Source: a virus. Taken from it: DNA of 35,935 nt. This document shows positions 6,703 through 35,935 of this stretch, piece after piece; positions within the stretch are counted from its first letter, which is position 1; the number at the start of each line of letters is the position of its first letter. The position numbers were made by a program, and so were the translations under genes. The stretch covers positions 1-35,935 of IMG/VR virus record IMGVR_UViG_3300017727_000056. One strand, 5' to 3'. The notes under the pieces are model-generated. The model made no database searches. It was not told the DNA's origin and saw only the letters and a program-made list of their open reading frames with translations.

Positions 6703-6708
6703 AGCCAA

Positions 6709-13523: not shown

Positions 13524-15566
13524 TCATTTGCTAAATCTTATTGATAGGCCGCCTTTGAAATTTAAAGGACCTCTAATTTCTGATGGCCCTTGATTACTAG
13601 ATGTATAAGGACCTTCGTATAAAATTATTGGAGCAGAACCTGCTAAACTTTTAGTCTGTAGCCATCCTGAATCAAAAGGGTCTGAATAGTCGTCACCAAT
13701 AAACATAGTAGTAGCGTCTTGCTCTTCTAAAGTATTACTAACATAATCTTTTATATTTTCCCAATCCCAGCCTCTGTTGTGTTCTAATACAGTTGCTAAG
13801 AATCCACATGCAACTGGACATGCGGCTGAAGTACCGTTAAAATAAGTATCTTCTGCTGTTCCGCCATCTGCTGTTAAACCTGAGTAAGTATTATCAAATC
13901 TAGGTACAATACTAGAAGTATCGCTAGGTGAAGCCGCGCCTAATGTACCATCTGCTGGTGCATAAAAATCCACTGCTGGACCACAATCACTATAATATGC
14001 CTTGTTGTCAATACTACCTATAGCAGTACCTTCACTCCAGTCATCATCTAGTGCGCCAACATTAATTGCTTTAAATCTATTATCAGCTGTTGGTCCAACA
14101 CATTGTGGCCAACCAGGTCTGTTTACAGATGCATATGCATTGTAATAGTTTCCTAATTCAATTTGATTAGTGTCGTCTATAGTTGCACCACTTGAACTCC
14201 AGTGAAAGTTATCCCAATTAGGATGATCTGGTAACACCTGTTGTTGGCTGTCATTACCTGCGGCCATAACTAATATTACACCTGCGTCTGCGCATTCATT
14301 TGATGCTGTAAATAAACTATTTGGTTTAGGATAATGTTTTACACGGCCATCGCCATTAGTTCTTATAACACGATAATTGTTAGTTGCATTAGTATTAGTA
14401 GTAAATTGATAGTCAGTACCTCTAAAATTAGAATAACCACTAGTCCTAGTTGATACACGAAATCCCCAACTATTAGAACTAATAGTAGGATCTTGTTGTC
14501 CGTAAGTAGGATTAATAGGCTTGTGTAAGTGGAATATTTTCATTACATCAAAGTATTGTTCGGATCCTAAAAACGAAGAACCATATGCATCAACAACCCA
14601 CTTGTTAGCATTATATGCCCAACCATGTGTTTTACCAAATGTTAAACTTGCACATTGTGTTCCGTGTGTTCCGTCGCCTGGTCCTACAGTATTTGAACCA
14701 TGAGCTCTGTTTCTAGTATAATTGCTTGGTATAGTTACAGTACCAATACTTGCAAACTTTGCTGAACGATTAGAACTATTTGCCCACCAACTTCTTGATA
14801 CACTTTCTCCAGGAACAACAGTACCGTCCCAACGTGTAATTAATCTATTACTTGCATCTGCATTAAAATAATCAGGGTCAATATAGTATGGACTATCTAA
14901 TACTAAATCTAATACGTTACATAACGGAGAAGTAGCATTGCCTGCATCTCTGCCGTCTCTAATACTTAATGGATTGCCTGGTATAAAATCTTGTGGAACT
15001 ATGCCAGCTTCACTTCCGGCACCTGAATTAACTGTGTCATTTATAAATTCTGGATGTCCTATCCAGCTTCCGTTATCGCCTACAATAACATCAACATCTT
15101 TGCCTGTACCTCTTTGTGCAGGAATGTCTTCTACTACTGCTGACCTATCTCCGCCTGCCCAAGGATTTGCTTTTTGTCTCATACGCAACAGTTGACTTGT
15201 TACTGCGCCATTGTCGACATTTGTTGTTCCGCTATAGTTTTGACCATAAGCAAGATAATTTCTTACATTGCTAGTGTATCTATTTTTCTGTGGAAGATCA
15301 CAACGTAATTGATCTGCAGGAATTTGCATCTCTGGATAACGTGCAACATCAAGATTTATGTATTCAACTTCTGGTAGTTGCTCAACTTCTGCTTTTTCAG
15401 CATCAGTAAGCATGTATGTACCTCTTGTTGAACTTTGTAATGTATAATTTTCACAAATAACTTCTCTGTCAGGCACATTACTAATTGATGTGCTAGTAGT
15501 AAGATATTCGTGTACTTTATCAAATGCATCTTTAGATACTGCATTTATAACATAATATTTTTCCAT
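13524..15566 (-). CDS. Subtilisin-like serine protease (peptidase S8), first copy
   Basis: A 680-residue protein. A prodomain-like N-terminus (residues 1-75, with TYMLTDAEKAEVEQLP) precedes the protease. Catalytic residues visible: Asp164 in VIVGDNGSWIGHPEF, His301 in GDGTHGTQCAS, oxyanion Asn438 in MAAGNDS, Ser580 in NGTSAACP. The Asp-His interval is long, with extra loops. No signal peptide. It sits directly downstream of a fibre gene (9-nt gap) and upstream of gp4, and AAAGGTAA precedes the ATG. It may be a virion enzyme that processes fibres or digests host surface protein; this is inference. The second copy is at 30787. Confidence 0.93.
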   Translation of the reverse strand: MEKYYVINAVSKDAFDKVHEYLTTSTSISNVPDREVICENYTLQSSTRGTYMLTDAEKAEVEQLPEVEYINLDVARYPEMQIPADQLRCDLPQKNRYTSNVRNYLAYGQNYSGTTNVDNGAVTSQLLRMRQKANPWAGGDRSAVVEDIPAQRGTGKDVDVIVGDNGSWIGHPEFINDTVNSGAGSEAGIVPQDFIPGNPLSIRDGRDAGNATSPLCNVLDLVLDSPYYIDPDYFNADASNRLITRWDGTVVPGESVSRSWWANSSNRSAKFASIGTVTIPSNYTRNRAHGSNTVGPGDGTHGTQCASLTFGKTHGWAYNANKWVVDAYGSSFLGSEQYFDVMKIFHLHKPINPTYGQQDPTISSNSWGFRVSTRTSGYSNFRGTDYQFTTNTNATNNYRVIRTNGDGRVKHYPKPNSLFTASNECADAGVILVMAAGNDSQQQVLPDHPNWDNFHWSSSGATIDDTNQIELGNYYNAYASVNRPGWPQCVGPTADNRFKAINVGALDDDWSEGTAIGSIDNKAYYSDCGPAVDFYAPADGTLGAASPSDTSSIVPRFDNTYSGLTADGGTAEDTYFNGTSAACPVACGFLATVLEHNRGWDWENIKDYVSNTLEEQDATTMFIGDDYSDPFDSGWLQTKSLAGSAPIILYEGPYTSSNQGPSEIRGPLNFKGGLSIRFSK

Positions 15567-15575
15567 GCTTTACCT

Positions 15576-17024
15576 TTAATGTAAATCTACCCAACCAGTG
15601 GTACTGTCTCCTGTGTCGGCTACATATGCTTGAACCTTGCCTGTTTCGGAGTTATAAATTGTGTCTCCAAGTGCAGGTGTTAGTCCATCTCTTTGTGCAT
15701 TTGTAAAACTAGCTAATCTAAATGGACTTTGTGTTACTTCTACTCTTGTTGCGGCAGTAAGTTTAATATTAGCTTCTGAGTATAATTCTGGATCACCTGG
15801 AGCAGTTGCTATAATGTTACCTGCAACAGTTAAATCGTTGTTAACTGTAAGGTCATTTTCTACAGCAAGATCACTGCTTATTGTTACTGCTGGAGTAATT
15901 GTAATACCGCTTGAATCGTCTGTATCAATTACACTAGATGCTAGTGTAAAGTTTCCTATTTGATCACCTGGATCTTGGAATGAAAATGTACCAGCGCCGT
16001 CAGTAGTTAATACTTGTCCATTGGTACCTTCAGCAATGCCTAAGTTTAATAATGTTCTTCCTGCTAGTTGATTTGATACATGAGTTTTAACTGCACGTTC
16101 AGTAACCAATGCACTTGCACTGTTATCAGCCATAGTCTCATCGTTACTAAATTCGTCAACGTTTACACCTAGTGCCATACTAATAGCCGTCAATGAACCA
16201 AACGATGTTGGAATATTAACTAGGTCTGAGTATTGTCTTGAAAATAGTAAGTTACTAGTGTCTGTTAAATCATTTATATCTAAAGGTATTGTTGGTGTAT
16301 TAGTTAGACTACTATATGAGCCATCAAATAATGCACTGCCAGTATCAGTTAGATCACTTACATCTACTGGTATTGTTGGTTTACCTGTTAAATCTGCATA
16401 TGCTCCACTAAACAATTCAGGGGCGCCAGTAAGTGCCGCATATTGTCCATTGAATGCATCATTAATACCATATCCTGCAATAGTTGTAGGTTTGTTTGTA
16501 ACATTTATAAAATCAATACTAGTAGCTTCAACATTTCTAAATATAAAATTACCAGTACCGTCTGTGCTTAGTACTTGTCCTGCACTGCCGTCTGTAATTC
16601 CTAAATCTGTAATTGCTGATGGCAATGTTGGTCTGCCTGTTAAATCTGCATAATTACCTGAGTAAGCAACAGCGTTCAATGGATCAGTATAATTAGAAAT
16701 ATTGCCTGCTGGATCTGATGTTAATAATCTACGCCATACGTTTGCATGTGAATAATATAATGCACCAGTTTCGTGTACGTGTGCAACCATGCCGTGATAT
16801 GTAGAAGCACTAATTGCATTTAGATCTGCTTCTGTAGCAAAAACATTACTATAAAATATCTTATTTGGACCAAAGTCTATATCGGTGTTTAGTAAATTAC
16901 TGCCGTCGCCTAATATTGAATATACTTCATTGAAATTATCGTTTACTTTGTCGCCGCCGTCACGTAAGCTATCGCCTGCTCCATCATTAGGTGATACACC
17001 TATGTTAATAAGTTGTTTTGCCAT
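15576..17024 (-). CDS. Tail-fibre-like structural protein
   Basis: A 482-residue protein built of low-complexity beta modules. It starts MAKQLINIGVSPNDGAGDSL, then carries YADLTGRPTLP-type repeats (at least four variants), ITDLGITDG followed by GQVLSTDGTGNF, and a run of LAVENDLTVNNDLTVAGN. The C-terminus ATRVEVTQSPFRL with a QRDGLTP segment and GWVDLH resembles ends of marine phage fibres. Such proteins form elongated trimers for host contact. Its ATG abuts the stop of the 156-residue gene (no gap), and GGGGAC serves as a possible ribosome site. It shares modules with the fibres at 29028 and 32730. Confidence 0.8.
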   Translation of the reverse strand: MAKQLINIGVSPNDGAGDSLRDGGDKVNDNFNEVYSILGDGSNLLNTDIDFGPNKIFYSNVFATEADLNAISASTYHGMVAHVHETGALYYSHANVWRRLLTSDPAGNISNYTDPLNAVAYSGNYADLTGRPTLPSAITDLGITDGSAGQVLSTDGTGNFIFRNVEATSIDFINVTNKPTTIAGYGINDAFNGQYAALTGAPELFSGAYADLTGKPTIPVDVSDLTDTGSALFDGSYSSLTNTPTIPLDINDLTDTSNLLFSRQYSDLVNIPTSFGSLTAISMALGVNVDEFSNDETMADNSASALVTERAVKTHVSNQLAGRTLLNLGIAEGTNGQVLTTDGAGTFSFQDPGDQIGNFTLASSVIDTDDSSGITITPAVTISSDLAVENDLTVNNDLTVAGNIIATAPGDPELYSEANIKLTAATRVEVTQSPFRLASFTNAQRDGLTPALGDTIYNSETGKVQAYVADTGDSTTGWVDLH

Positions 17025-17495
17025 TTATTCGTCCCCGTCAAAGGTAATTGTTCCTGAGTCTAACGTAAATCCAGTTGCACTGAAATTTGTTGCTACGTTT
17101 GTATTTATGAATATTTGCTCTGGGGTACCTTCAATTATGTTTCTCTTTTCATATTTTATAATTGTTTGATCTCTTTTAAATCCAACAGCACTTGTTTTCT
17201 TTCTGTTGTAATTTAATATCTCTGCAATAACTGCACTAAGTTTTAATTCATCAAGTCCTTTTAATGTTTGTAACAATGTATATACATCAACGTTATCTGA
17301 TTTTGCTTGTTTTACAAGAACTGTACTTACAGCTAATGATGCTGTTTTGTCAAAGCCTCTTGATTCAAAAAAGCCAAGTACTGTAGTTAATTCATTATCT
17401 GTTAAACTAATAGGCTTAGAATAATATTTGTCAAAGAATAATGTAACATCTCTGTCAGATTGTTTAGAAATATTTCTTATAGGTAATCCGCTCAT
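17025..17495 (-). CDS. Conserved virion structural protein (156 residues)
   Basis: A 156-residue protein. The helical part SLTDNELTTVLGFFESRGFDKTASLAV followed by LLQTLKGLDELKLSAVIAEILNYNR matches a small structural protein I recognise from marine T4-like phages; the C-terminal third is beta-like (FINTNVATNFSATGF). Exact role not known to me. It overlaps the upstream 433-residue gene by 4 nt and abuts the fibre gene downstream, so the three are co-translated, suggesting they act in one tail or baseplate part. Confidence 0.7.
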   Translation of the reverse strand: MSGLPIRNISKQSDRDVTLFFDKYYSKPISLTDNELTTVLGFFESRGFDKTASLAVSTVLVKQAKSDNVDVYTLLQTLKGLDELKLSAVIAEILNYNRKKTSAVGFKRDQTIIKYEKRNIIEGTPEQIFINTNVATNFSATGFTLDSGTITFDGDE

Positions 17496-18793
17496 GTTGT
17501 TTGATCCAATGCTTTATCTTTATATAGTTGTTGACTACCTGCGGGTAATGCTTTCCAGGCCGCGTTTGCACCATTAATGCCATCGGCGCCTCCATCGTTT
17601 AAATAATCATTTAGAAAAATATTTCTTGCTGTGTCATCTAACTGTGCTGGATTAGCAAGTAGATTTTGTCGTTGAGAATTTTCACTTTGGGGTGCTGAGA
17701 TAGTAGAAGGTTGTGTTTGTGTTGTATTATTATTTCCACCCGGACCTTGCGACTTTGGAACAACAGTATTTTGTAAACCACTAGTTATGTTTACTGATGT
17801 TCCTGTTGCATCTTGTATTACATCTCCAGCAAGTCCTGTTAAATCATCTACTACACCTTCTGGAGTTAAATTTGAAATATTTCTTATTAATTGGAATGCA
17901 CCTAATGCCGCTTCTAATGGGCTACCAAAGTTTTCACCTTGTGAAATATAATCATATAAGTCAGCGCCTGCGCCAAATATTCCATCAATACCTAATTGTC
18001 CACCACCTAATAAACTAATTGGTGATGGTTGTCTATCGTAATGTGAAGCGTCACCAAATCCTGTTGGTTCACCCTCAGAACCTGCTGATACTCGTCCTCT
18101 AGAATAATGTACTGCTTCATATGCAACTGTAATATTATTTTGCATTGTTCCTGACGCATCTGCATTATCTACAGTATCATGTGCCCAGTTTGTAATTATT
18201 GGATTAACAATAGTATACGTTGTGTATGATTTTTTTGCTAATTGCGATATTTGAATATTCTTAAAAAATGGTACACTAATAGCATTGTCTAAACCATATT
18301 TGTATTGGTTTCTGCCACTACCCATATATGTGTTGTCGCCTGCTCCTGCTTTGTTATAAGCACCAGGGTTTCTGCCATAGCTTGCATCTGCAAAATAATA
18401 TCTATAGTATGCTTCTAATAATGCAGTAGTTACACCAAAGTTATCGTCATGGAATGAAATATTAATTGGTTCGTATTGTATGCCTGTTTGTACATTCTTT
18501 TTTCTATTGTATTTGTTTCTAGTTTCTACAATAGCAGTAAATTTAGGAAGGTCTGCTGATTTAACAAGCATACCTATTTCTAAATTATGCTTATCCTTTA
18601 ATGAAGGTAGAATAGATCTTACAACAGGATCTAATTGAAAATATACATGATATAGAAACTTTTGTTTGGGAGCAAATCGTAAATCGTTATCAACATACAA
18701 TCTACTTGCATGTTGCCAATCCGCTACTGTACCTTTAGGACCTAATAATCCTGAAAGTAAGTTATCTAAAAATCCGTTCGATGTTAGTGCCAT
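17492..18793 (-). CDS. Virion structural protein, tail-tube-like
   Basis: A 433-residue protein. The first half (KQKFLYHVYFQLDP, then LVKSADLPKFTAIVETRNKYNRK and ISFHDDNFGVTTALLEAYYRYYF) resembles the tail-tube fold of gp19 and its baseplate-cap relatives. The second half is Gly/Ala/Asn/Gln-rich and low in complexity (LLGGGQLGIDGIFGAGADLY, NNNTTQTQPSTISAPQ). I infer a tail-tube or tube-end protein; gp48/54-type cap proteins are alternatives. Late core GATAAATA ends 5 nt before the ATG, with no ribosome site, and a terminator separates it from gp19 upstream. Confidence 0.72.
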   Translation of the reverse strand: MALTSNGFLDNLLSGLLGPKGTVADWQHASRLYVDNDLRFAPKQKFLYHVYFQLDPVVRSILPSLKDKHNLEIGMLVKSADLPKFTAIVETRNKYNRKKNVQTGIQYEPINISFHDDNFGVTTALLEAYYRYYFADASYGRNPGAYNKAGAGDNTYMGSGRNQYKYGLDNAISVPFFKNIQISQLAKKSYTTYTIVNPIITNWAHDTVDNADASGTMQNNITVAYEAVHYSRGRVSAGSEGEPTGFGDASHYDRQPSPISLLGGGQLGIDGIFGAGADLYDYISQGENFGSPLEAALGAFQLIRNISNLTPEGVVDDLTGLAGDVIQDATGTSVNITSGLQNTVVPKSQGPGGNNNTTQTQPSTISAPQSENSQRQNLLANPAQLDDTARNIFLNDYLNDGGADGINGANAAWKALPAGSQQLYKDKALDQTT

Positions 18794-19553: not shown

Positions 19554-22500
19554 TTATAGTCCTGATATCTCGCCTGTATTTTTCAATCTAAGCGGAATGT
19601 AAATAAACTCAATTGCTTTAACAGGTTCAATAGCAACATCTACATATAGTTCGTTTCTATCAATTCTGCTTGGAGTATTGTTTGTTTCGTCACATACAAC
19701 TAAGAAGTCATACAAGGCTCTTTGACCAACAAGCTCAAGAAGTAAACTTTCAACTTGCTGTTTAATCTCATCACGTGTGATTTTATCATTTGGTTCAAAG
19801 ATATATGGTTTAGCAAGTGTGTTTAGCTGACTACGTAAGTAGATAACCAAACGTGCTACGTTGATTCTATCTAATGCACTATTACCTCTTGCTCTAGTTT
19901 TCTGTCCAAAGTTAACAAGTCCTGCACCTGTAATAAACGTAATTGGGTTAACGCCTTGTGCATATAATGTATCTCTTTGTCCTTCGTTTAGTGCAACAGT
20001 TGTAAATTCGCCTTCGCTATTAATATAACCAGTTGCTGATGCGTTTGTAATTCCGCCACGTCTTGTACCTGCTGGTGCAAACCATGGGTAAGAAACTTGA
20101 TCACTTAGTGCAATAGTTCTTAGCATCATGTGTGAAGCTGGAACTACAACGTTGTTACCAAAGTTGTCACTTGTAAATCCTGCTGGATAAAATATTGCAA
20201 AATAATCATCTTTACTTACAAGTCCATCATCATTATCTTCTGCTGATAACTTAGCGTTAGTTGCCCATTCATTTAATGAAGTTGCATCTGGTTTTAGTCT
20301 CATTGGAGCATCTCCAACTACAAAGCCTGTTAAACCTCTATCGTAGTTTAGACTAATCATTTCACCAATTAGTTCTGGATATCCTGGTGATGCAATCAAG
20401 TTAAAGATACGTGCTTCGTCATCTCTAATCTCATCGTTATTATTAACAATACCTTGTAACGATTGTACAACAACTTTACGCTGTGCATTACGTCCAAAGC
20501 TACCTGAACCATCAATTTGGTTAGCTGATTCAGTTACCCAACGATCTTTATTGTAATTTGTCATTTGTTCATCTTTATGACGTAAATTCTTATCGCCAGT
20601 TGTGATGTAGTTTTTAACAAATTTCTTAACATTGAATCCGCTTCTACGTGTGTTAACAAGTATCATACCTTGTGGATATAGTGCTGGATCTGGAGCATCT
20701 GGGTCTAAGTAGTTGCTAGTTAGCAAGTCTTTAATTGACCCTGCTGTTGAACCAAGCGCACCACTTGTACCATATCTTGCATCTGCAAATAGTACACCAT
20801 TTTCTGTAGTTTGATCTGATTTATCTAATAATTCCCAAACATCAGTTGCTTTTCTGTATTTGTAAATCATTGGAAAGTTTTCTAAATCACTTGTGTCAAT
20901 CCAAAGATCGCCATTTGCTAGTAAAGAACCATCTGACTGTTTAGTTGGTTGTGTTGCACTAACAAGTGGTCCTAATGGATCAGTTTTGTCTGAAGTTACT
21001 GCTGAGTAGTAAGGAGCCGCGTCACCAAAGTTAATAGCTTCGTCTCCGCTGTACTGGTAACCTACCCAAGTTGTACCATTGTGGATCATAATGTCCATTT
21101 GATCAACAATTGAGTTGTACCATAACTGACCATCTGCCGCTGTAGCAGTTGGCGCACTAGCACTTGCTGTGTAATTCAATGCTGACCAATTACTTGCTCT
21201 GTACACTGAAGGAGTTGTGCCGGAATCTGTTCCTGGCTCGTAACTTACATAGTCAGTACCTGTGTTTGCATCTACGTATGGTGAAATACCTAATAGTGTT
21301 AATGAAGCTGCCGCGCCACTACCATCTGTTAGTTTAATTTCTCCACCTTTTGAGTGCTTAATAATAACTTTGTTTTCTGCGTCAACTTCTGCACTTACGT
21401 TTGCAATACCTGCACTTGTAATTGCTGTTGCCCAAGCAATCGCTTGTTCTGCCGCTGTTTCACTACCTGACATTGTTACAGCAATAGTACTTGCCGCAAA
21501 GTTACTAAAGTCTGCACTACCTGGTGCTGTTGACTGAAGTGTCAAGTTGTATGTTCCTGCTGAAAAAGAACTTGCTTCAAACACGCTTGTTTTAATTACT
21601 GTTGCGCCTGATGCACTACGTCTGTACAATCTAAATGTTGCAATTGGTAATGTATCTCCTGCAACGTTTGTTAATACAAACATATTGCCAAGTTGCAAGT
21701 TTTCACCGCCACCTGTTCTGTCTAATTCTAAAATTGCATTTTGTGCAGAACTAAACATTGGTGCTTCAATACCGTCCCAAAGTCTTGTTTCAGTGTTCCA
21801 CTGTTTTACTCTCCAACGAGCACCTAAGTTTGGCTCAGTTGTTTTTAACCAAACACTACCAGTTGGTCTACCAGTTGCGCCTGAAGTAACTTTAAAGTCT
21901 GTTGGAATTTGTGTATGCTTACTAATTTGTAATGCTGGTGGATAATAACTACCAGCTGTTAAACCTAATGCTGTTAATACACTTTCGTCATTTGCACTAC
22001 CTGGTGCTAAAACTACTGGACCAGCTTGTGTACTATCTGCACCACTTACTGAACCATCACTGTATAATGCTAGTCTATTATCTACTGCCGCGGCACGTAT
22101 TCCTGAAATACCTAATCCGTTAATTGCTACGACTATTTCAGCTAATGTTTGTCCGTTTGTTACAGTAACAATAGTTTCATTTAATGTTAATGTACCTGCA
22201 CTTACGCTTGGATTTGCTGTTGCACCAGTAACTGCTGGCCAACTATCTTTCCAATCATCGCTACCAACTTCAACCCAATCGCCGTCGGCTGCTCTGTACC
22301 AAATTGTTACTAGCTTACTAATTGCAACTACTGCGTAGTCGCCTATTTGTCCTACTGATGCTAAAGGTGCACCTGGAGCGTTTAATGACCCAGTTACTTG
22401 GTTAACATTTGTTAATACTAATGGTGTTTTATTAGTAAAGCTCTGTCCGCCTGTAACTGTAATTGCCGCATTGTTCCATTCTTGGATACCATACAATGAA

Positions 22501-22922
22501 GTAGTAGTATCTAACCAATATGTGCCTGCGGTTGGATCAGCAGTTGGAACACTTGCTCTTGGCTCTAACTGTGCCAAGTCAATTGGTGCTCTTACTACCC
22601 ATGCTCTGTTGCTTACACCTAAGAATGAATATGCCGCTTGTAAGCCGTATTCGTTTAATTCTGATCCGTGTACTGGATTGTTGTTTGCGTCAACTCTAAA
22701 AGTTGGATCGCCAAATGTTTCAGCTAAGTCACGTTGTGAAGTCATTAAATATGGCTTACCAGCGTTTGCCGCTAGTGTACCTAATGCTGTGCCTGTCCCT
22801 GAAGCATTTTTTTTGTCTTGTGCTGTTGCACAAAATATTACTGGAACTGTACCTGGTTCAGCGGGTGTGTAAAAACTCTCGTTTACTACGCTAACCTGTA
22901 CTCCGGGTGATGATAATGCCAT
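19554..22922 (-). CDS. 18: Tail sheath protein gp18, expanded
   Basis: A 1122-residue protein, far longer than T4 gp18 (659). The N-terminus MALSSPGVQVSVVNESF and the C-terminal half (RTIALSDQVSYPWFAPAGTRRG, then NPITFITGAGLVNFGQKT and RLVIYLRSQLNTLAKPYIFEPND) are clear sheath sequence. The extra length is an insertion of roughly residues 120-690, rich in Thr/Ala/Gly, with at least four Trp-containing modules of the kind GTYWLDTTT...EWN. The insertion is likely exposed on the sheath surface. It forms the contractile sheath. TAGGAGAA precedes the ATG, and GGTAAATA lies upstream. Confidence 0.94.
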   Translation of the reverse strand: MALSSPGVQVSVVNESFYTPAEPGTVPVIFCATAQDKKNASGTGTALGTLAANAGKPYLMTSQRDLAETFGDPTFRVDANNNPVHGSELNEYGLQAAYSFLGVSNRAWVVRAPIDLAQLEPRASVPTADPTAGTYWLDTTTSLYGIQEWNNAAITVTGGQSFTNKTPLVLTNVNQVTGSLNAPGAPLASVGQIGDYAVVAISKLVTIWYRAADGDWVEVGSDDWKDSWPAVTGATANPSVSAGTLTLNETIVTVTNGQTLAEIVVAINGLGISGIRAAAVDNRLALYSDGSVSGADSTQAGPVVLAPGSANDESVLTALGLTAGSYYPPALQISKHTQIPTDFKVTSGATGRPTGSVWLKTTEPNLGARWRVKQWNTETRLWDGIEAPMFSSAQNAILELDRTGGGENLQLGNMFVLTNVAGDTLPIATFRLYRRSASGATVIKTSVFEASSFSAGTYNLTLQSTAPGSADFSNFAASTIAVTMSGSETAAEQAIAWATAITSAGIANVSAEVDAENKVIIKHSKGGEIKLTDGSGAAASLTLLGISPYVDANTGTDYVSYEPGTDSGTTPSVYRASNWSALNYTASASAPTATAADGQLWYNSIVDQMDIMIHNGTTWVGYQYSGDEAINFGDAAPYYSAVTSDKTDPLGPLVSATQPTKQSDGSLLANGDLWIDTSDLENFPMIYKYRKATDVWELLDKSDQTTENGVLFADARYGTSGALGSTAGSIKDLLTSNYLDPDAPDPALYPQGMILVNTRRSGFNVKKFVKNYITTGDKNLRHKDEQMTNYNKDRWVTESANQIDGSGSFGRNAQRKVVVQSLQGIVNNNDEIRDDEARIFNLIASPGYPELIGEMISLNYDRGLTGFVVGDAPMRLKPDATSLNEWATNAKLSAEDNDDGLVSKDDYFAIFYPAGFTSDNFGNNVVVPASHMMLRTIALSDQVSYPWFAPAGTRRGGITNASATGYINSEGEFTTVALNEGQRDTLYAQGVNPITFITGAGLVNFGQKTRARGNSALDRINVARLVIYLRSQLNTLAKPYIFEPNDKITRDEIKQQVESLLLELVGQRALYDFLVVCDETNNTPSRIDRNELYVDVAIEPVKAIEFIYIPLRLKNTGEISGL

Positions 22923-24431: not shown

Positions 24432-25190
24432 TTAACCTATTGTAAATCCGTAACCTACACCGCCTGGAACAGCCATGGATACTTCTAATTCTAATTTTTC
24501 CATTTCTTGTGCGGCTTCTGCTTTGAGTGAATCACCATTTAGTGTTGAGCCACCTTGTGGACCTGCAATGGTTGCAAACTTGCTACGTGCTTCGCCTAAC
24601 ATATACTTACATGCGGCTAATGTGTAGTCTTTGATCCATTGGATTGCTAGATAGTCTGTAAGCAGTTCACTATCTGGACGATAGTTATAGCAATACAGAA
24701 GTAGGTCTTCTTCTGCTCTCGGACGTTGTAGTAATGTTAAACGCTTGTTAGATGAATTCCATTTGAATTCAATAAAGCTACCAAACATTCTACCTACTAA
24801 TTCTTGGTACTGACTAAACATATCGTATGTTGCTAGTCCGCCCATGTTAGAACTTGATAACAAGTACGTATTTGTGTATGCCATGTTGAATGGTTCAAAT
24901 AGTGTTCCGCCGTCTCCGCCGCCAGTACGTGAGCCAATACTTCTACGAAATAACTTACGTACTTCCATTACTTCAGTTGGAAGTGTGTATTCGTTCTGAT
25001 CTTTTACTGTAGGCAAAAACATATATGATTCTTCTACACCATTATCGCTACGCTGTCTGAATTTAGTCAGAGCTTTTGTTAATGCTGTTTCGTAATGTAC
25101 AGGATCAAGCTCGACATCAATCATACCTCCGCCAAGCATTGCGTGTACATAGTCATATATTTCTTGTTTTTGTGTTGCTAAGTTAGACAT
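24432..25190 (-). CDS. 13: Neck protein gp13
   Basis: A 252-residue protein strongly resembling marine T4-like gp13: MLGGGMIDVELDPVHYETAL, then FRRSIGSRTGGGDGGTLFEP, NTYLLSSSNMGGLATYDMF, MLGEARSKFATIAGPQGG and TLNGDSLKAEAAQEMEKLE. T4 gp13 is 309 residues. It forms the head-tail neck with gp14. CGGAGAAA lies 9 nt before the ATG. Unlike T4, it is divergent from gp14 and shares a palindromic promoter region with it. Confidence 0.93.
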   Translation of the reverse strand: MSNLATQKQEIYDYVHAMLGGGMIDVELDPVHYETALTKALTKFRQRSDNGVEESYMFLPTVKDQNEYTLPTEVMEVRKLFRRSIGSRTGGGDGGTLFEPFNMAYTNTYLLSSSNMGGLATYDMFSQYQELVGRMFGSFIEFKWNSSNKRLTLLQRPRAEEDLLLYCYNYRPDSELLTDYLAIQWIKDYTLAACKYMLGEARSKFATIAGPQGGSTLNGDSLKAEAAQEMEKLELEVSMAVPGGVGYGFTIG

Positions 25191-25211
25191 ATAATTATTT
25201 CTCCGTCATAG

Positions 25212-25219
25212 TATTTATC
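25212..25219 (-). promoter_or_regulatory. Late promoter core GATAAATA for gp13
   Basis: Minus strand GATAAATAC, 21 nt before the gp13 ATG, with CGGAGAAA between. It forms one arm of the near-perfect palindrome 25212-25232. Confidence 0.65.
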
Positions 25220-25224
25220 GTTAC

Positions 25225-25232
25225 GATAAATA
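25225..25232 (+). promoter_or_regulatory. Late promoter core GATAAATA for gp14, 5 nt before ATG
   Basis: Plus strand GATAAATA-TACAT-ATG. No Shine-Dalgarno. It is the other arm of the palindrome, centred 10 bp from the gp13 promoter, so the two late complexes would overlap. Confidence 0.65.
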
Positions 25233-25237
25233 TACAT

Positions 25238-26335
25238 ATGCCGAGACTTAGCTTATATAAACCCGAACGTGGTAATGACTTCGAATTTTTAGACAAACAG
25301 ATTCTAGAAATGTTCACTGTTGGTGGAACAGACCTACATGTATACAAATATACAGGTACAGATGACGGAAAAACAGTAAAAGATCATACACAAATACAAG
25401 ATATGGTTTTCTTAGAAAATCGTGATAGAAAATACGAACCAGACATATACAAAATTAGAGCAATATACAATGTACAAGATATTGATTTTGATCTAAGTCA
25501 GTTTGGATTGTTCCTATCCAATGATACATTGTTTATGACAGTACATATTAGAAGTAGTGTAGAAACAATTGGTAGAAAATTAATGCCCGGAGATGTTATT
25601 GAACTTCCGCATTTGATAGACGAATATGCAGAGAATGATGCAAGTATTGCACTTAAACGCTTCTATGTTATTGAAGATATTAATAGAGCGGCAGAAGGCT
25701 TTAGTCAAACTTGGTATCCGCATTTATACAGATTAAAACTAAAACAAATTTACGATGGTCAAGAATACAAAGATATACTTGACTTACCAGCAGAAGAAGG
25801 TAGTGACGATACATTACGTGATTTACTGTCTACATACGAAAAAGAAATGCAAATTTCAAAGGCTGTAAAGGATGAAGCTGTAGCAGAAGTACAACAAAGT
25901 GGATATGACACTAGTCATTTTTATACACTACAAACTAATGAAAGTGGTGAAACAGAACTTACTGAGACTGAAGGTACTGATAATTTAAAAGAAATGGCAC
26001 CGCCAGACAGACCAGGTTACAAAGGGTACATTATTGGTGGAAATATTGCTCCTAACGGTGAACCATTTGGACATGGCATAGCATTTCCGTCAAATCCACA
26101 AGACGGTGATTACTTTATGAGGACAGACTTTATGCCTAATAGACTATTTAAATATAAAGCTAATAGATGGAATAAAGTACAAGATGTTAAACGTGCTGAC
26201 CTTTACGGAGCAGACACTGCTAATAACCAAAAAGGTACATTTGTTAATAATAGTAATACAACAACAGTTGCCGGTGAAACATTTAACGAGAAGCAAGGTC
26301 TTTCACAAGTACTTAAACCTAAGGCAGATAATTAA
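25238..26335 (+). CDS. 14: Neck protein gp14
   Basis: A 365-residue protein. MPRLSLYKPERGNDFEFLDK, then VFLENRDRKYEPDIYKIRAIYNVQDIDFDLSQFGLFLSND and SQTWYPHLYRLKL, match marine T4-like gp14. The C-terminal third has extra material, including a GDYFMRTDFMPNRLFKYKAN module like those in gp18. It joins gp13 at the neck. The late core lies 5 nt before the ATG. The stop overlaps the gp15 start (TAATG). Confidence 0.9.
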   Translation: MPRLSLYKPERGNDFEFLDKQILEMFTVGGTDLHVYKYTGTDDGKTVKDHTQIQDMVFLENRDRKYEPDIYKIRAIYNVQDIDFDLSQFGLFLSNDTLFMTVHIRSSVETIGRKLMPGDVIELPHLIDEYAENDASIALKRFYVIEDINRAAEGFSQTWYPHLYRLKLKQIYDGQEYKDILDLPAEEGSDDTLRDLLSTYEKEMQISKAVKDEAVAEVQQSGYDTSHFYTLQTNESGETELTETEGTDNLKEMAPPDRPGYKGYIIGGNIAPNGEPFGHGIAFPSNPQDGDYFMRTDFMPNRLFKYKANRWNKVQDVKRADLYGADTANNQKGTFVNNSNTTTVAGETFNEKQGLSQVLKPKADN

Positions 26336-27963
26336 TGCAACACTTTTATGACAAACAAATTAGACGATATATTACGCAAGTAATTCGTTTACTCAGCGAA
26401 TTTGGATACAAGGATGGTAAAGACAATCTTGTAAAGATTCCAGTAATGTATGGTGATTTGACTAGACAAGTTGGTAGTATTATACGTGATAATAGTGAAA
26501 ACAAAATACCTAGTGCTCCAAGGATGGCAGTATACATAACTGGTCTAGCAATGGATACAAATAGACTTGCTGATTCAAGTTACATTAACAAACTTAATAT
26601 TCGAGAAAGAGCTTATGATAACAACGGTGATGAGTATTTAAAGGCTGAAGGCAAGAATTATACTGTTGAAAGACTAATGCCTACTCCTTATACACTTACA
26701 GTTAATGTTGATGTATGGACTACTAACACTGATCAAAAATTACAATTACTAGAACAAATACTAATGTTGTTTAATCCTAGTTTAGAAATACAAAGTACAG
26801 ACAACTATATTGATTGGACTAGTTTGAGTGTTATCAATATGACTGATATTAACTTTAGTTCGAGATCAATACCCACAGGAACAGAAACTGAAATTGATAT
26901 TGCAACACTTACTTTTGAAATGCCAATCTATATTAGCCCACCTGCAAAGGTTAAAAAGCTAGGAGTTATTACAAATATTATTACAGCAATGTTTGCCGAT
27001 GATGGTTTAGAAATTAACATAGATGACACTGCATATGCACAAAGTCTAGTTAAAGAAGCACACATTGTTGATGAAACAAAAACTAATAAACTAACAGGCA
27101 AGCGTGAAGCACTTACAACAGAAACCACGCTAATCACAACTAGTCATAACAATTACGACTTATTGTTTATGAATAATGTTGCAAGACTAATTGGCAAGAA
27201 CGCTGTCGTTGGAAGCGAAACTTGGACTGGTTATTTAAACTCTTTACCGTTTGAATTTGAATCTGGCATTACTGAATTGCGTTTACAGCGATCAAACGGA
27301 TTTGAAATTATTGGTACTGTTGCAATAAACACAACTGACGAAACAGAGTTAATGGTAAACATTGATGCAGACACACTACCTGACGATACGTATATTGAAG
27401 GTAGAACATCAATTGACTATATTATTGACCCTGCTAAGAAAAATCCAATAGATTTTGGTCTAAGTAACAATCCTAGAGTATTATTACTAGGTAATATAGG
27501 ACATGTTCAAAGAGGCAGGTTCACAACAACTACTAAAATTTTAACTTATGATACTAAGCATTTATTCTATGACGTAACTAGATTAAAGGTATTTGTAAAC
27601 GGTACCGAAGTATCAGCATCAGCTATGGACGGCGACTCATCAGTGTCGTCAACTGACACTTATATTATTAAATTTAATAGTATGTTAGATATAGGTGATG
27701 TAGTTGAGTATGAACTATACTTAGACGTAGACGGACCTGATGCATGGAAAAATGCAGATGGTACAGACTTTTCAGCAAGTGCAAACGATATTGTAGAATG
27801 GGACGGCAATAGATGGGTCAAAGTGTTTGATGCCGCAACTGCTTCTGCAGATACGTACACTACCAATCTTAACACAGGTATACAATACAAGTGGACAGGC
27901 ACTGAATGGATAATGAGCTATGAAGGTGAATATCCAGACGGCACCTGGAGAATCAATTACTAG
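26335..27963 (+). CDS. 15: Tail sheath stabiliser gp15, extended
   Basis: A 542-residue protein, twice the length of T4 gp15 (272). The first 220 residues match the family: FYDKQIRRYITQVIRLL, VKIPVMYGDLTRQ, ERLMPTPYTLTVNVDVWT, LEQILMLFNPSLEIQSTDNY, SSRSIPTGTETEIDIATLTF and ISPPAKVKKLG. The rest is a beta-rich extension ending in Trp-containing repeats (VEWDGNRWVKV, YKWTGTEWIMSY). It caps the sheath at the head end. Its start overlaps the gp14 stop by one base, so translation is coupled. Confidence 0.85.
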   Translation: MQHFYDKQIRRYITQVIRLLSEFGYKDGKDNLVKIPVMYGDLTRQVGSIIRDNSENKIPSAPRMAVYITGLAMDTNRLADSSYINKLNIRERAYDNNGDEYLKAEGKNYTVERLMPTPYTLTVNVDVWTTNTDQKLQLLEQILMLFNPSLEIQSTDNYIDWTSLSVINMTDINFSSRSIPTGTETEIDIATLTFEMPIYISPPAKVKKLGVITNIITAMFADDGLEINIDDTAYAQSLVKEAHIVDETKTNKLTGKREALTTETTLITTSHNNYDLLFMNNVARLIGKNAVVGSETWTGYLNSLPFEFESGITELRLQRSNGFEIIGTVAINTTDETELMVNIDADTLPDDTYIEGRTSIDYIIDPAKKNPIDFGLSNNPRVLLLGNIGHVQRGRFTTTTKILTYDTKHLFYDVTRLKVFVNGTEVSASAMDGDSSVSSTDTYIIKFNSMLDIGDVVEYELYLDVDGPDAWKNADGTDFSASANDIVEWDGNRWVKVFDAATASADTYTTNLNTGIQYKWTGTEWIMSYEGEYPDGTWRINY

Positions 27964-30786: not shown

Positions 30787-32730
30787 TTATGTTGTGTTTG
30801 CTTCAATTGTTACTTCAACATGCGCTCGCTGACTGTCTAAAGTAAGTTTAAAAATTTCGTCGTCTTCTACTACTGTATCTTGTAAAAACGTAAATGTTTG
30901 TGATGCTGTGCCGCCAACTATATTAAAATTGCCAACTAAAGAGGCTCCTTGAATATCTGCGGCTTGTACTCCAGTAATTGTATACGGTACTAATGTACCA
31001 TCATCAATGCCTACTGTAGTTAACGTAACAATAATAGTTGCGCCTTCAATATCTGTCGATGTACTTGCATCTAAATGATAATGCTGGTAAGCCATACCGT
31101 TCTGTGAAACAATAAATCCATTTAATGTGTTATCAGGTACGCCGCCATAACGTAGCGGCTGTTTTCCGTATCTGCAAACAGTGTGTGAATTTGTTCCGCC
31201 CATTAAACTTGTAGTACTGTTAGTATAATCATCTGCTAGTCCAGTATCTGATATTACACTAGTTGAATCGCCAAGCAATACTGCTTTTAATTGTGCAGGA
31301 GTCATCCACGGTTTATTTCCTAAGTGGAGTGCCGCAATGCCTGCAATTTGTGGACTTGCCATACTAGTTCCACTAATGCTCATTATTTTAAAACTGTCAT
31401 TGTCTGGATAATCATACTGTGTATAATTAAATGTGTTATTAAAATTACTAGCAGTACTCATAATATTTGTACCTGGTGCCCAAATATCAACAGCTGGACC
31501 TCGCACACTAGAAGCCGCAGGCCTGTCGTGGTATACTGTTACGCCATCAACAACTTCTAATTGTACAGCTGAATCTATATTACCAACATACAATGCTGTG
31601 TCTGCATACGGAGACCCTGGACGATGATAAAATCTTGTCCCATTAGACATTGTTACTTGATTGTCAAAGTCTGGTCCTGTAGCAATGTCTGACTTGTAAT
31701 AACTGTTGCCTGAAGCAATACATACTACTATTCCATCACTAACCATATCTTCTATTTCTGCATCAACTGATGCTACTTGGCTTGTAAATCTTCTAAACTG
31801 TCCTAATGGAGGAACAACTCCGCTAGTGGCCCATACTTCGTTATCTGTAGTGTAGCCAGCATCGCCAAAGTTCCATGCTGATCCTCTGTAAACTCCACTT
31901 ACTGGATTACCGGAAGCAGTACCTTGATATCCCCAACTCATGTTAACAACTGTAGGCCTTTTGTATCCTGTTGCAGTATCACCTTTTTGATTATGCCATA
32001 ATCTAATAGTATCAAATGCATCAGTAATTGGAATGCCACCGTCATCGCCGGCGCCTTCTAATCCACCTAGCTTCTGTGAATATACTTTAGCACGTTTAGC
32101 CCAACCATATGTTTTGCCACATGCAATACCTGCACAGTGAGTACCGTGGCCATCATAATCTCTATAATGATTTACACTTTGTGTTCCTGGTAATCCACTT
32201 GCCGCATACCAATCTATTTGTTCAACTCTTGATACACCGTCTTGGATAAATTCAGGATGATCAACTTGTAGTCCACTATCTTGTGTAACAACATCAACAC
32301 CTAGTCCATCTAATCCGTATTCAAAAAATCCTGTATTAGGTGCTACGTTTTTTACAAAGTTCCAGTCTTGTGTGTTTCCAAAAGAGTTTAAATCTTGTAT
32401 ACATCTTGGTAGTGCCCAGTTAACTTCATTGTTTAAACTTTGCGAACCTCTATAAAAATTAGCATCTTGATATGCATTGAGTACTAGTTCTATATCATCT
32501 CTTTGATCTGGTGGTATTTCAACTGCACGTATTCTGTCGTCTGCTTCTAATGCAACTGCTTCTTCGTCAGTAAGCATAAAATGTGTTTGAACTTTTGATC
32601 CAAGTCTTGGATTAGCAACATCAACTGTTCGATTAGGAATAGGACCTGCGCCAGAACTAGCAGTAATCTCTGCTTCAATTGTTGGCAAGTCTTCTCTGTT
32701 ATGAACTATAACTGTATATTCTTTTTCCAT
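30787..32730 (-). CDS. Subtilisin-like serine protease (peptidase S8), second copy
   Basis: A 647-residue protein. N-terminal prodomain-like part (residues 1-75, with FMLTDEEAVALEADDRIRAV) resembles that of the protease at 13524. Catalytic set: Asp151 in VVTQDSGLQVDHPEF, His198 in GHGTHCAG, Asn342 in ASGNS, Ser456 in SGTSMASP; closer to standard subtilases than the first copy. After the protease, about residues 530-647 form a beta-sandwich-like end (VVEDDEIFKLTLDSQ), similar to Calx-beta style modules. Its ATG overlaps the upstream fibre stop (TAATG). No signal peptide. Role inferred: fibre maturation or host-surface digestion. Confidence 0.94.
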   Translation of the reverse strand: MEKEYTVIVHNREDLPTIEAEITASSGAGPIPNRTVDVANPRLGSKVQTHFMLTDEEAVALEADDRIRAVEIPPDQRDDIELVLNAYQDANFYRGSQSLNNEVNWALPRCIQDLNSFGNTQDWNFVKNVAPNTGFFEYGLDGLGVDVVTQDSGLQVDHPEFIQDGVSRVEQIDWYAASGLPGTQSVNHYRDYDGHGTHCAGIACGKTYGWAKRAKVYSQKLGGLEGAGDDGGIPITDAFDTIRLWHNQKGDTATGYKRPTVVNMSWGYQGTASGNPVSGVYRGSAWNFGDAGYTTDNEVWATSGVVPPLGQFRRFTSQVASVDAEIEDMVSDGIVVCIASGNSYYKSDIATGPDFDNQVTMSNGTRFYHRPGSPYADTALYVGNIDSAVQLEVVDGVTVYHDRPAASSVRGPAVDIWAPGTNIMSTASNFNNTFNYTQYDYPDNDSFKIMSISGTSMASPQIAGIAALHLGNKPWMTPAQLKAVLLGDSTSVISDTGLADDYTNSTTSLMGGTNSHTVCRYGKQPLRYGGVPDNTLNGFIVSQNGMAYQHYHLDASTSTDIEGATIIVTLTTVGIDDGTLVPYTITGVQAADIQGASLVGNFNIVGGTASQTFTFLQDTVVEDDEIFKLTLDSQRAHVEVTIEANTT

Positions 32731-34181
32731 TACCCTGCGGTTCCGTCATCTAAGTTTATCCAGGCACCGTTCTGTCTGCCTTGGAATCTATTGACGGTAG
32801 TGTTATATACAACATCACCATCAAGTGCGGCGACTGTGTTTCTTTCGTTAGTTGTTAATCTTGGAAATCTAAAAGCGCCTGTGCCTTCAACTATTAGTCC
32901 ATCAGTAGTTGTAATAGTTAAAGTTGACGAAGTATCAATTGTTGGCGCACTAGTGCCTGCTGTTATAAAATCTCCTGAAGTTACTGTAGCAAAAGTAACT
33001 GCGTTTGTTGTATTCAAATCTTGGTTAAATGATGATCCGCCTGAGCCTGCTGGCGGAGTATATTGAAAGTTTCCTGTTGTATTATCATAAAGTAAGTCAC
33101 CATCGCCTGATGCGGAATTAACTGTTACACTAAATGCTGTTAGGTCAACGCCTGAATCTGCAAAACTAAAATTGCCTGCGCCATCAGTTGTAAGAACTTG
33201 ATCAGCAGTGCCGTCTGTAATACCTAAGTCTGTAAGTGTTGTGGGAATGTTTATTGCTGGAGTGTTGATTAAATCAGCATAGTCACCTGTAGTAGCAACT
33301 GTAGCAAATGTTGGCTTGTTTATAACATCAGCATAGTCAACTACAATGTCTGGTGCGTCCGGTGTAACAGCCGCAGGTTGTACCCATTGTCCTGTATCCT
33401 CGTCAACAATGTATACTAATAATCTACCTGTAGTACTTTGAAACCAAAGGTCGCCACTTGTAGGACTAACTGGTGCAGTGTCTGAAACTTCTATTGAAGC
33501 ACCATCTGGGCTTGGAGCAACTCCGCCACCGCCACCACTTCCTGGATAAGCTCTAGTACCACTATTGCCCATACCAAGATGATTAATACAATAATAGTAA
33601 AGCGTTTCTGGTGTTGAAGATGTAATTGTTATTTGTATTGCACGGTGAGTACTACTTGCAAAATTAGCAATATAATAAGTTCTTGTTACTGGTTCGTGTT
33701 CTAGCAAATAAATTACACCGTCTGTGTAAGTTATATGATCTGAACCAGCGTGATCAACATGTTCAACTGGATCTATTGCTGAGAATTCTAAGGGATGTTG
33801 ATTAAATACTGCGCCGCCAATTGGATTTGGAAAATATAAATTTGTAGGATCAGTTTGATCAAAGTAATAAGTGTAACCTACAATCCAATCAATTGTTGGA
33901 CGCTTTGATCCATTTAAATTATAAACGTTAGCAGTATCTTCATCGTTTCTTGATACTGTTACAGGATATTTAACTGTAGCAATTTGTTGGCTTGCGGCAT
34001 TTCTTCTAATATTATTTTCAGTTACAACTTCAAATCCACTACGTATTGTTCCATCGTACACACGTAACGTTTTAGCTGATTTACTATAATATAACTCACC
34101 GCTAGAACCGATATTTCTGTTTAGAAAGTCCTCTGGTCTAGGTATAAGTCTAATTCTATCTACAATTGGGCTTTGGCTCAT
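32730..34181 (-). CDS. Fibre-like structural protein with internal cupredoxin-like segment
   Basis: A 483-residue protein. N-terminal IPRPEDFLNRNIGSSGELYY with LRVYDG is followed by a segment (about 95-205) with His129 in NQHPLEF and Cys198, His201, Met204 in YYYCINHLGMG, again a type-1 copper ligand set with C-x2-H-x2-M spacing. A Gly-rich linker (GSGGGGG) and SGDLWFQSTTGRLLVYI module lead to fibre repeats (LTDLGITDG, QVLTTDGAGNFSF) and an end typical of marine phage fibres (GDVVYNTTVNRFQGRQNG). CGGAGAT precedes the ATG. The next gene is the second subtilase. Confidence 0.76.
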   Translation of the reverse strand: MSQSPIVDRIRLIPRPEDFLNRNIGSSGELYYSKSAKTLRVYDGTIRSGFEVVTENNIRRNAASQQIATVKYPVTVSRNDEDTANVYNLNGSKRPTIDWIVGYTYYFDQTDPTNLYFPNPIGGAVFNQHPLEFSAIDPVEHVDHAGSDHITYTDGVIYLLEHEPVTRTYYIANFASSTHRAIQITITSSTPETLYYYCINHLGMGNSGTRAYPGSGGGGGVAPSPDGASIEVSDTAPVSPTSGDLWFQSTTGRLLVYIVDEDTGQWVQPAAVTPDAPDIVVDYADVINKPTFATVATTGDYADLINTPAINIPTTLTDLGITDGTADQVLTTDGAGNFSFADSGVDLTAFSVTVNSASGDGDLLYDNTTGNFQYTPPAGSGGSSFNQDLNTTNAVTFATVTSGDFITAGTSAPTIDTSSTLTITTTDGLIVEGTGAFRFPRLTTNERNTVAALDGDVVYNTTVNRFQGRQNGAWINLDDGTAG

Positions 34182-34249: not shown

Positions 34250-34879
34250 ATGTCGAACAATAAATTTAATAAAATACCAGTATTCCCAATAGAGTTTTAT
34301 GAATTTAATAACACAACTATTGATAATGCTGACTTAATTGAGCGTTTAAAAAGTAAACGCAATCCGGCGCACGGAATTACATCTTCAAATGATGTACACG
34401 ACGACCCGTTATTTGATGACTTATTTGACTGGATTAAAAGTTGTTTAGCTGATATTGTCGAAGATAAAAGATACGACTGTAAAGAATTATCAGTAACTAG
34501 CAGTTGGAGCAACTGTGCTGAAAGTAATGCAGGGTTAGCTAGTCATCCCCACAAACACAGTATGAGCATGTTTAGTGGTGTGTACTATTGTACTCCAGGT
34601 GCTCCTATAAACTTTGAAGACCCTGTTCAACAAAGACTACATGCACAAATTGATGTGCTTCAACATGACTACGAACCATTAGTAACTTTTCCAGTACAAC
34701 CAGGTAAGTTATTAATTTTTCCAAGTTGGATGTATCACTCAACTGATCCTCATTATGAAAATTATGACAGATGGGTTGTAGCGTTTAATACATTACCAAG
34801 TGGCGATATAAACATAAACCTTGCAAGAGATTCAATAGCAAATATAACTATAGGAAAAACTAACAAATGCAATCTGTAA
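34250..34879 (+). CDS. 2OG-Fe(II) oxygenase-like protein
   Basis: A 209-residue protein from the ATG at 34250. LASHPHKHSMSMFSGVYYC (His99/His101 region) and LLIFPSWMYHSTDP (His163) with Arg174 in RWVVAFN follow the double-stranded beta-helix pattern of the 2OG-Fe(II) oxygenase family common in marine phages. It would hydroxylate or otherwise oxidise a substrate using 2-oxoglutarate. A longer frame from a non-ATG codon at 34166 would run through the divergent promoter and is unlikely. It overlaps the halogenase by 13 nt, so the two are coupled and may act on one substrate (inference). Confidence 0.85.
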   Translation: MSNNKFNKIPVFPIEFYEFNNTTIDNADLIERLKSKRNPAHGITSSNDVHDDPLFDDLFDWIKSCLADIVEDKRYDCKELSVTSSWSNCAESNAGLASHPHKHSMSMFSGVYYCTPGAPINFEDPVQQRLHAQIDVLQHDYEPLVTFPVQPGKLLIFPSWMYHSTDPHYENYDRWVVAFNTLPSGDININLARDSIANITIGKTNKCNL

Positions 34880-35935
34880 TAGTACTAGGTGGTGGATCAA
34901 GCGGTCTACTATCGGCCTTAATGGTCAAACAAGCATTTCCTAATTTTGATGTTACTGTTATTAAAAGTGACTCAATAGGAATTATTGGAGTTGGAGAAGG
35001 TAGCACTGAACATTGGAAAACACTATGTCAGTTTTTAAACATTGATGTTAATGATGCTGTAAGACATTGTGGTGCAACAATGAAAGTCGGAATACATTTT
35101 AAAGATTGGGGTGTACCTGATTACTATCATAGTGTAATTGACGACTACTTAGAAACTAATGGCGAGTCATTTCCGTTTTATCAAAAATTAATTTCTGATG
35201 AAGTTGATATGTTGTCAGTAACAGGTATAGGGTTTGATAAACCAAGTGTGTCAGAAGCATGGACTCAAAATTTAGTTGAGCCGGAAGCCGCACAGTTTCA
35301 TTTTAACGCACTACTACTAAATGAATACTTGTTAAAACTTTGTGCTGAAAGAAATATTGTTATCAAAGAAGATAAGATTGTTGGCGTAAACGTAGAGCAA
35401 GGTCAAATTAAAAATATAAACGGTAAAGAAATACACAAAGCTGATTTCTTTATAGACGCATCGGGCATGGCAAGAGTATTAATGAAAGAGCTAGGAGCTA
35501 AATGGAATAGCTATGGAGATCACTTGATAACAAATAGTGCTATTGCATTTCCAACTGAAGATACAGACGAGTATCCAATTTATACTTCTGCTACTGGTAT
35601 GGACTACGGATGGATGTGGAACACTCCAGTGCAAGGAAGATGGGGCAACGGTTATGTATTCTGCGACAAGTATATAGACTTTGATCAAGCACAAGCTGAA
35701 GTAGAAAAGAAACTTGGGCATCCAATTAAAATATTTAAAAAAATTAAATTCGATCCAGGATCACTTGATCAAAACTGGATAGGTAATTGTTGTGCTGTTG
35801 GACTTAGTAGTGGTTTTGTAGAGCCGTTAGAAAGTTCTGCTATTAGTCAAGGACTATTGCAAACATGGCTACTTATAAACTTATTACCTGCGTGGGCTAA
35901 TGATACCAATAACAGCGATGCTAGTAAAATTTATA
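34867..35935 (+). CDS. Flavin-dependent (tryptophan-type) halogenase, C-terminus cut off
   Basis: 356 residues are visible before the right edge. FAD loop VLGGGSSG at residues 6-13, VGEGSTEHW at 42-50, Lys73 in GATMKVGIHF aligned with the catalytic lysine of PrnA, DYGWMWNTPVQGRWGNGYVF matching the WxWxIP halogenase signature (Ile replaced by Thr), and GLSSGFVEPLESSAI with the conserved Glu. These enzymes chlorinate or brominate an aromatic substrate via HOX made at a reduced flavin. Substrate unknown; a protein or small molecule is possible. No flavin reductase is in the window. Confidence 0.9.
   Translation, partial: MQSVIVLGGGSSGLLSALMVKQAFPNFDVTVIKSDSIGIIGVGEGSTEHWKTLCQFLNIDVNDAVRHCGATMKVGIHFKDWGVPDYYHSVIDDYLETNGESFPFYQKLISDEVDMLSVTGIGFDKPSVSEAWTQNLVEPEAAQFHFNALLLNEYLLKLCAERNIVIKEDKIVGVNVEQGQIKNINGKEIHKADFFIDASGMARVLMKELGAKWNSYGDHLITNSAIAFPTEDTDEYPIYTSATGMDYGWMWNTPVQGRWGNGYVFCDKYIDFDQAQAEVEKKLGHPIKIFKKIKFDPGSLDQNWIGNCCAVGLSSGFVEPLESSAISQGLLQTWLLINLLPAWANDTNNSDASKIY

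Follow-up and report, generated by a model that had tools for sequence, protein, structure and literature searches.

Phage gene clusters that combine a flavin-dependent halogenase (FDH) with oxygenase genes are already known, and it is the function that would be categorically new if an adhesin substrate is confirmed. The marine phage halogenase VirX1 is described as having an active site that is large and open, in a review that leaves its biosynthetic context blank and lists no cluster for it (PMC8407142). The S-SSM6a-type cluster of jumbo cyanophages has been predicted to make a metabolite or to decorate the capsule (Iyer et al. 2021, PMC7824862). For each cyanophage, prnA genes (up to two) and 2OG oxygenases (up to five) were tabulated separately, and a role in 2OG level or in DNA repair was proposed (Sullivan et al. 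2010, PMC3037559), the 24 2OG oxygenases of S-SCSM1 were read as metabolic reprogramming genes (PMC9602691), and the FDH of S-CREM1 was read as supplying chlorotryptophan for pyrrolnitrin (PMC9964418). A link between such genes and tail adhesins was not found in the open-access literature, as far as its accessible text goes; the original VirX1 paper lies outside that scope, and an earlier mention of the VirX1 neighbourhood is possible.

The DNA analysed here, the window, is the whole of IMG/VR record IMGVR_UViG_3300017727_000056 (35,935 bp), and its last gene is consequently cut by the record end. This gene, FDH1 (34867..35935, plus strand; PF04820, 9.7e-74), supplies the first 356 of 491 amino acids of a variant-A FDH. 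It is preceded by an oxygenase-family gene of 209 aa on the same strand (34250..34879; PF13759, 2OG-FeII_Oxy_5 or phrog_81; Pfam 1.1e-14, phrog_81 1.5e-33). An initial sequence-only reading had claimed that the two genes overlap by 13 nt, and this is borne out by the gene boundaries and the family matches: the oxygenase starts with ATG at 34250 and stops at 34877-34879, FDH1 starts with ATG at 34867, and the overlap occupies 34867..34879 of the plus strand. The ATG at 34250 aligns with the starts of relatives, and a TTG 84 nt upstream would give a longer frame. The same 13-nt overlap is present in L002-L007, and an upstream PF13759 gene commonly overlaps the FDH gene by 1-13 nt in other viral loci. 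The coupled expression and fibre-gene neighbourhood proposed in that reading are likewise supported.

Divergent from the cassette, with a start 68 bp from that of the oxygenase, is a fibre-like gene (32730..34181, minus strand) that had no match in a Pfam search and forms the left border of the island, as it does in L002-L007. The bordering fibre operon also encodes a subtilase (Peptidase_S8) protein (30787..32730, minus strand; PF00082, 2.7e-27), a relative of which adjoins the island in L199; a second subtilase is found among the fibre genes at 13524-15566 (minus strand; PF00082, 1.7e-17). A tail sheath or sheath-stabiliser-like gene (26335..27963, plus strand; phrog_11196 4.5e-80, phrog_227 3.3e-22) recurs as a homologue on 16 of 25 contigs that carry an island or an FDH cluster and is a syntenic anchor of the island in related phages. 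The 1122-aa tail sheath protein encoded at 19554-22922 (minus strand) finds its best isolate matches in the jumbo phages Phosso, Atu_ph07 and PA5oct, which makes the window a probable jumbo-myovirus fragment. The other end of the window carries genes of surface-modification type, namely a nucleotidyltransferase-like start (2-367), sulfotransferase-like genes (392-973; 12441-13088, by motif), a polysaccharide pyruvyl transferase (943-1713) and an FkbM methyltransferase (2981-3649).

The oxygenase and FDH1 are the first two genes of a block of about 20 halogenase and oxygenase genes beside Gly-rich tail-tip proteins, and the window itself carries only these outermost two. That the pair is the island edge is seen in L002, which is 99.84% identical to the window over 7,069 bp. 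Beyond the window end, the same species encodes FDH2, two more PF13759 proteins, FDH3 and a DUF6445-like protein; then follows a convergent run of P4H-like (phrog_2954), phrog_2696, PF13640-like, two DUF6445, PF13640-like (phrog_274), JmjC_2 and two PF13759 genes, and finally DUF6065 and, where the contig ends, another FDH (family labels were taken from the G004 relative). Full-length FDH1 of G002 is 98.2% identical to that of the window species, and FDH1 of G004 83%. In both G002 and G004 the island comprises five FDHs, a DUF6065 protein and about 13 oxygenase-family genes, with fibre genes flanking it at one end and three paralogous Gly-rich tail-fibre proteins at the other; the G002 island extends from its three adhesin genes (24485-27071) to the window-type oxygenase at about 44.7 kb. 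The 270-kb contig G008 has four tandem FDHs and a similar oxygenase set adjoining the same sheath-stabiliser/NUDIX genes and Gly-rich proteins, and many of 80 more viral loci combine 3-5 FDHs with 9-14 oxygenase-family genes in an order that recurs.

The families that recur inside the islands are FDHs, oxygenase-like families and DUF6065, and genes for baseplate or tail, NUDIX and fibre proteins are among those recurring elsewhere on island loci. None of the recurrent island families is a scaffold-making enzyme. A PF01613 flavin reductase had no match on 16 contigs, one of them of 270 kb, and a host reductase is therefore assumed. Sequence searches of the PDB with DUF6445 and the P4H-like family gave no significant match. 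The DUF6065-like proteins present in most cassettes (for example, L008 9054-9785, L037 428-1207 and L425 12090-12878) have a C-terminal stretch that weakly matches dUTPase (wsv112, E 0.004). At L036 14602-18283, oxygenase-like cassette proteins bear the PHROG names "DNA endonuclease V" (phrog_274), "ferrochelatase" (phrog_2954) and "minor coat protein" (phrog_1644), which look misleading. DNA modification by base halogenation or oxidation was also considered and set aside, there being no TET/JBP-like family among the island genes scanned.

FDH1 matches PF04820 with 249 bits against a curated cut-off of 21. The FAD loop, Lys73, WxWxIP-like motif and PLES glutamate that the sequence-only reading had listed are all present, as GGGSSG (8-13, GxGxxG), K73, W249-M-W251-N-T-P254 (WMWNTP) and E322; no aligned FDH departs from K73 (20 of 20 and 35 of 35), and E322 varies little or not at all. 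The Ile-to-Thr change flagged in the WxWxIP signature is real, but it is a mark of the FDH1 lineage, found also in L005, L006 and L011, and no sign of decay. Recovery of the full gene, which had been recommended, was achieved from L002, where FDH1 is an open frame of 491 aa (6001-7476), and the broken C-terminus that might have lain beyond the window was not found there. FDH1 and the oxygenase are under purifying selection in relatives (dN/dS 0.04-0.13 and 0.05-0.18, respectively). An AF2 model of the L002 copy (pLDDT 91.7) resembles PyrH with a Z score of 42 (471 residues aligned) and VirX1 with a Z score of 35. By profile, motifs and predicted fold, FDH1 is a variant-A flavin-dependent (tryptophan-type) halogenase of putative activity. 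The earlier step from intact motifs to activity can reasonably be taken for the halogenase, less so for the oxygenase with its HxH motif. A quick tree of 174 FDHs, with several weak forks, groups FDH1 with one FDH each from L011 and L129, assigns FDH2 to a separate viral clade represented on many contigs, and puts FDH3-FDH5 in another viral clade nearer to bacterial FDHs. The long retention of these paralogues suggests that they differ in target site or regiochemistry.

The oxygenase matches PF13759 with 55 bits (cut-off 27), and an alignment of 23 homologues reveals conserved H101-x-H103, H163 and R174. In place of the HxD/E...H metal triad, all 23 have H101-x-H103...H163, as do the structures 3bvc and 2rg4 with their HxH, and the gene is for this reason filed as a PF13759 member rather than as a proven 2OG dioxygenase; the 2OG-binding Arg after the distal His, R174, is invariant in 23 of 23. 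The AF2 model (pLDDT 86) is nearest to the PF13759 structures 3bvc (Z 18.5) and 2rg4 (Z 18.2), followed by the protein prolyl hydroxylases OGFOD1, P4H bound to EF-Tu and PHD2. Likeness of a predicted fold to prolyl hydroxylases is no proof of function, and with an HxH motif the metal chemistry is putative.

A full-length match identifies VirX1 (PDB 6QGM) as AGH56623 of cyanophage Syn10, annotated as hypothetical. The Syn10 locus begins with two PF21722 Gly-rich adhesins (phrog_863 tail fibre), a small phrog_1787 protein, an FDH and VirX1, continues with DUF6065, a 73-aa protein, PF13759, DUF6445, phrog_2696, PF13759 and JmjC_2, and ends with a 201-aa protein, PF13640-like, DUF6445, PF13640-like and P4H-like proteins. 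Most G004 island genes have Syn10 counterparts, mostly of 35-55% identity: FDH5, DUF6065, an 84-aa gene, two PF13759, JmjC_2, two PF13640-like, two DUF6445, phrog_2696, the P4H-like gene and the small phrog_1787 gene. We define a VirX1-type cassette as FDH, DUF6065, PF13759, DUF6445, JmjC_2, phrog_2696 and P4H-like genes in conserved order adjoining Gly-rich tail-fibre proteins, and such a cassette is present in G004 and G002 as in Syn10, S-CREM1 and S-RIM44. Equivalent loci, some of them reduced, are found in S-RIM44, P-TIM40, S-CREM1, P-RSM6, S-SZBM1, S-WAM1 and the Sf phages, where the genes are mostly annotated as hypothetical or as single metabolic genes.

In 10 of the 13 isolate genomes that contain both, PF21722 lies within 1.5 kb of an FDH, where random rotation predicts 0.76, although the resulting p of ~4e-11 overstates independence because the isolates are mostly related cyanophages. 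The 1,051 kb around FDHs contain 32 Gly-rich ORFs, against none in the 1,842 kb surrounding RecA or terminase genes of related phages; these controls are core-gene regions rather than FDH-free fibre regions, and so they indicate rarity and not a fibre-matched background. The Syn10 adhesin occurs in 20 of 50,697 phage records, with a VirX1-type FDH adjoining it in all 20 and a JmjC_2 gene in 19. A reverse search of viral_contigs with single adhesin genes retrieved close relatives only and is therefore no measure of how often adhesins occur without FDHs. Island-linked Gly-rich domains are richer than others in His (4.2% versus 1.7%) and Tyr (4.6% versus 3.1%), which is only suggestive since they are largely one homologous family. 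In other phage types (L144, L049 and L060), one or two FDHs and several oxygenases shortly follow a Gly-rich protein, and in S-SRM01 an FDH adjoins the gp37-gp38 adhesin tip. The contigs L049, L054 (Maricaulis) and L060 (Verrucomicrobia TMED56) are binned into bacterial MAGs; L049 and L060 look like phage DNA, with FDH and oxygenases within phage tail genes, and L054 perhaps. FDH relatives also occur in four Campylobacter phage records and in the human-faeces phage contigs MT835646 and MT837902.

The S-RIM44 isolates differ by adhesins and cassette jointly, as one block next to the neck gene gp13. Cassette-bearing isolates such as ES_42_0910 and Np_42_0711 have, between the giant fibre protein and gp13, three Gly-rich adhesins, two FDHs and about six oxygenase-family genes; in the others, among them Np_05_0604 and W2_10_0709, this stretch is free of FDHs and encodes a tip-like protein of another kind (294 aa), a small protein and one PF13759 protein. 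The two types are 94.7% identical from just before gp13 onward, and 65-70% identical or unaligned on the fibre side. The alternative fibre end in L453 (S-RIM44 Np_05_0604, 16395-18275) comprises a tip protein, a small phrog_2504 protein and one PF13759 oxygenase, so that a minimal unit of tip, small protein and oxygenase may exist without halogenases.

We consider it somewhat probable that the pair belongs to a conserved virion-adhesin tailoring cassette for halogenation and hydroxylation of tail-tip proteins. In a wider proposition, a dedicated cassette (1-5 halogenases, up to about 14 oxygenases) would serve marine phages in general for halogenating and hydroxylating the receptor-binding adhesins of their own tails, and would be exchanged along with the genes for these adhesins; this appears to us evenly balanced. 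The findings suggest, and do not yet prove, that phages chemically decorate the protein with which they grip the host. The gene content and order of the cassette, its linkage to adhesins, their joint presence or absence, purifying selection and intact FDH catalytic residues are observed features, and we infer the adhesin substrate, the residues changed, the timing of expression and the benefit. Electron-rich aromatics are the substrates that variant-A FDHs halogenate, while hydroxylation is directed at His or Arg of ribosomal proteins by JmjC_2/ROX enzymes and at Pro in proteins by P4H/PHD/OGFOD1 enzymes. Late in infection, the FDHs, supplied with FADH2 by a host reductase, would halogenate exposed aromatics (Trp, Tyr, perhaps His) of the Gly-rich tail-tip proteins at the island edge, and the DSBH-fold oxygenases (PF13759, PF13640-like, DUF6445, JmjC_2) would hydroxylate other tail-tip residues. 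The receptor-binding tip would thereby gain non-genetic chemical diversity, possibly of benefit for receptor affinity or for resistance to host proteases or to receptor change.

The evidence counted for adhesin tailoring comprises the G002 island, its Syn10 counterparts, the 20 of 20 adhesin records, the S-RIM44 block, PF21722 proximity, the Gly-rich ORF counts, the same adjacency in other phage types, the lack of recurring scaffold-making enzymes, the prolyl-hydroxylase fold likeness, the absence of a listed biosynthetic cluster for VirX1 and the open active site of VirX1, a pocket that fits a bulky substrate (PMC8407142). Against it are counted the FDHs far from adhesins (P-SSM2, S-B64 and S-MbCM6; 8 kb in HTVC008M), the PyrH-like fold, by which the FDHs resemble small-molecule halogenases, the HxH of the PF13759 proteins, the kinship of the isolate genomes, the core-gene controls and the fact that no modified virion peptide is known. 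The sequence-only reading had proposed tailoring of one molecule, perhaps an aromatic residue or a host metabolite. Its direction was right, but the pair is no isolated two-gene unit; it is the edge of an island with 4-5 halogenases and about 13 oxygenase-family genes. Since VirX1 sits in this cassette in Syn10 and the cassette goes with Gly-rich tail adhesins, a virion protein is the more likely target than a host metabolite.

It is conceivable, if unlikely, that the enzymes act on host molecules or the envelope and sit at the fibre module only through a recombination hot spot whose cargo is exchanged with fibre tips. The S-RIM44 swap covers the whole fibre end, and other FDHs are located elsewhere in phage genomes, as such passengers might be; yet one specific adhesin family goes with the cassette in all 20 records, gene order is kept at roughly 35-55% identity across phage groups, and the adjacency recurs in other phage types. 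More doubtful is a small-molecule pathway whose product would be an amino-acid metabolite bearing halogen and hydroxyl groups, in line with the prediction for the S-SSM6a cluster, where Iyer et al. (PMC7824862) place the one jumbo cyanophage halogenase and 2OG oxygenases with carbamoyltransferase and methylase genes; in L147-type loci, judged by sequence only, a single FDH stands together with a carbamoyltransferase-like and a HAD-like gene. In the window-type island, however, carbamoyltransferase, glycosyltransferase, methylase, ligase and carrier genes do not recur, and the cassette enzymes only decorate and track the adhesin. Halogenation of free Trp for a pyrrolnitrin-like antibiotic, with unrelated 2OG oxygenases as metabolic genes, is the reading its authors give for S-CREM1 ORF69 (PMC9964418), but it is very improbable here, as no pyrrolnitrin-pathway gene recurs in the islands and the S-CREM1 FDH and oxygenase run share the conserved cassette adjoining its Gly-rich proteins.

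If adhesin tailoring is correct, VirX1, which gains a genomic context and a testable native substrate, would act on a virion protein. The halogenase and the numerous "2OG oxygenase" genes, each tallied on its own as an auxiliary metabolic gene, are joined into one virion-linked module, and post-translational chemistry on receptor-binding tips is proposed as a source of host-range variation. Cultured isolates exist with and without the cassette, and so a direct test of the idea is possible.

Several known systems resemble the window locus. Bacterial FDH loci (Alteromonadales and others) are similar in that the FDH adjoins DUF6445 (L069, L079 and L091) near genes that look like outer-membrane receptors; they differ in having 1-5 FDHs, mostly of other tree clades, and no multi-oxygenase array. 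In Pelagibacter phage HTVC008M, a gene annotated as phytanoyl-CoA dioxygenase overlaps the FDH gene, but the pair lies between terminase genes, with one FDH and the Gly-rich gene 8 kb off. The S-SSM6a-type cluster of Iyer et al. 2021 (PMC7824862) shares an FDH and several 2OG oxygenase/cupin genes, and differs by its one FDH and by carbamoyltransferase, HemK-like methylase and HAD genes that are non-recurrent in the islands here; no carbamoyltransferase or HemK-like methylase was seen among the island genes scanned. Unlike VirX1 with its WxWxIP, FDH1 is a distinct paralogue with WMWNTP, paired with a PF13759 gene; the FDHs most like it in the islands of Syn10, S-RIM44 and S-CREM1 share about 25-27% identity with it. 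VirX1 is, like the island enzymes, a marine-phage variant-A FDH, 55% identical to FDH5 and 49% to FDH4 of G004, and it is encoded in the same cassette.
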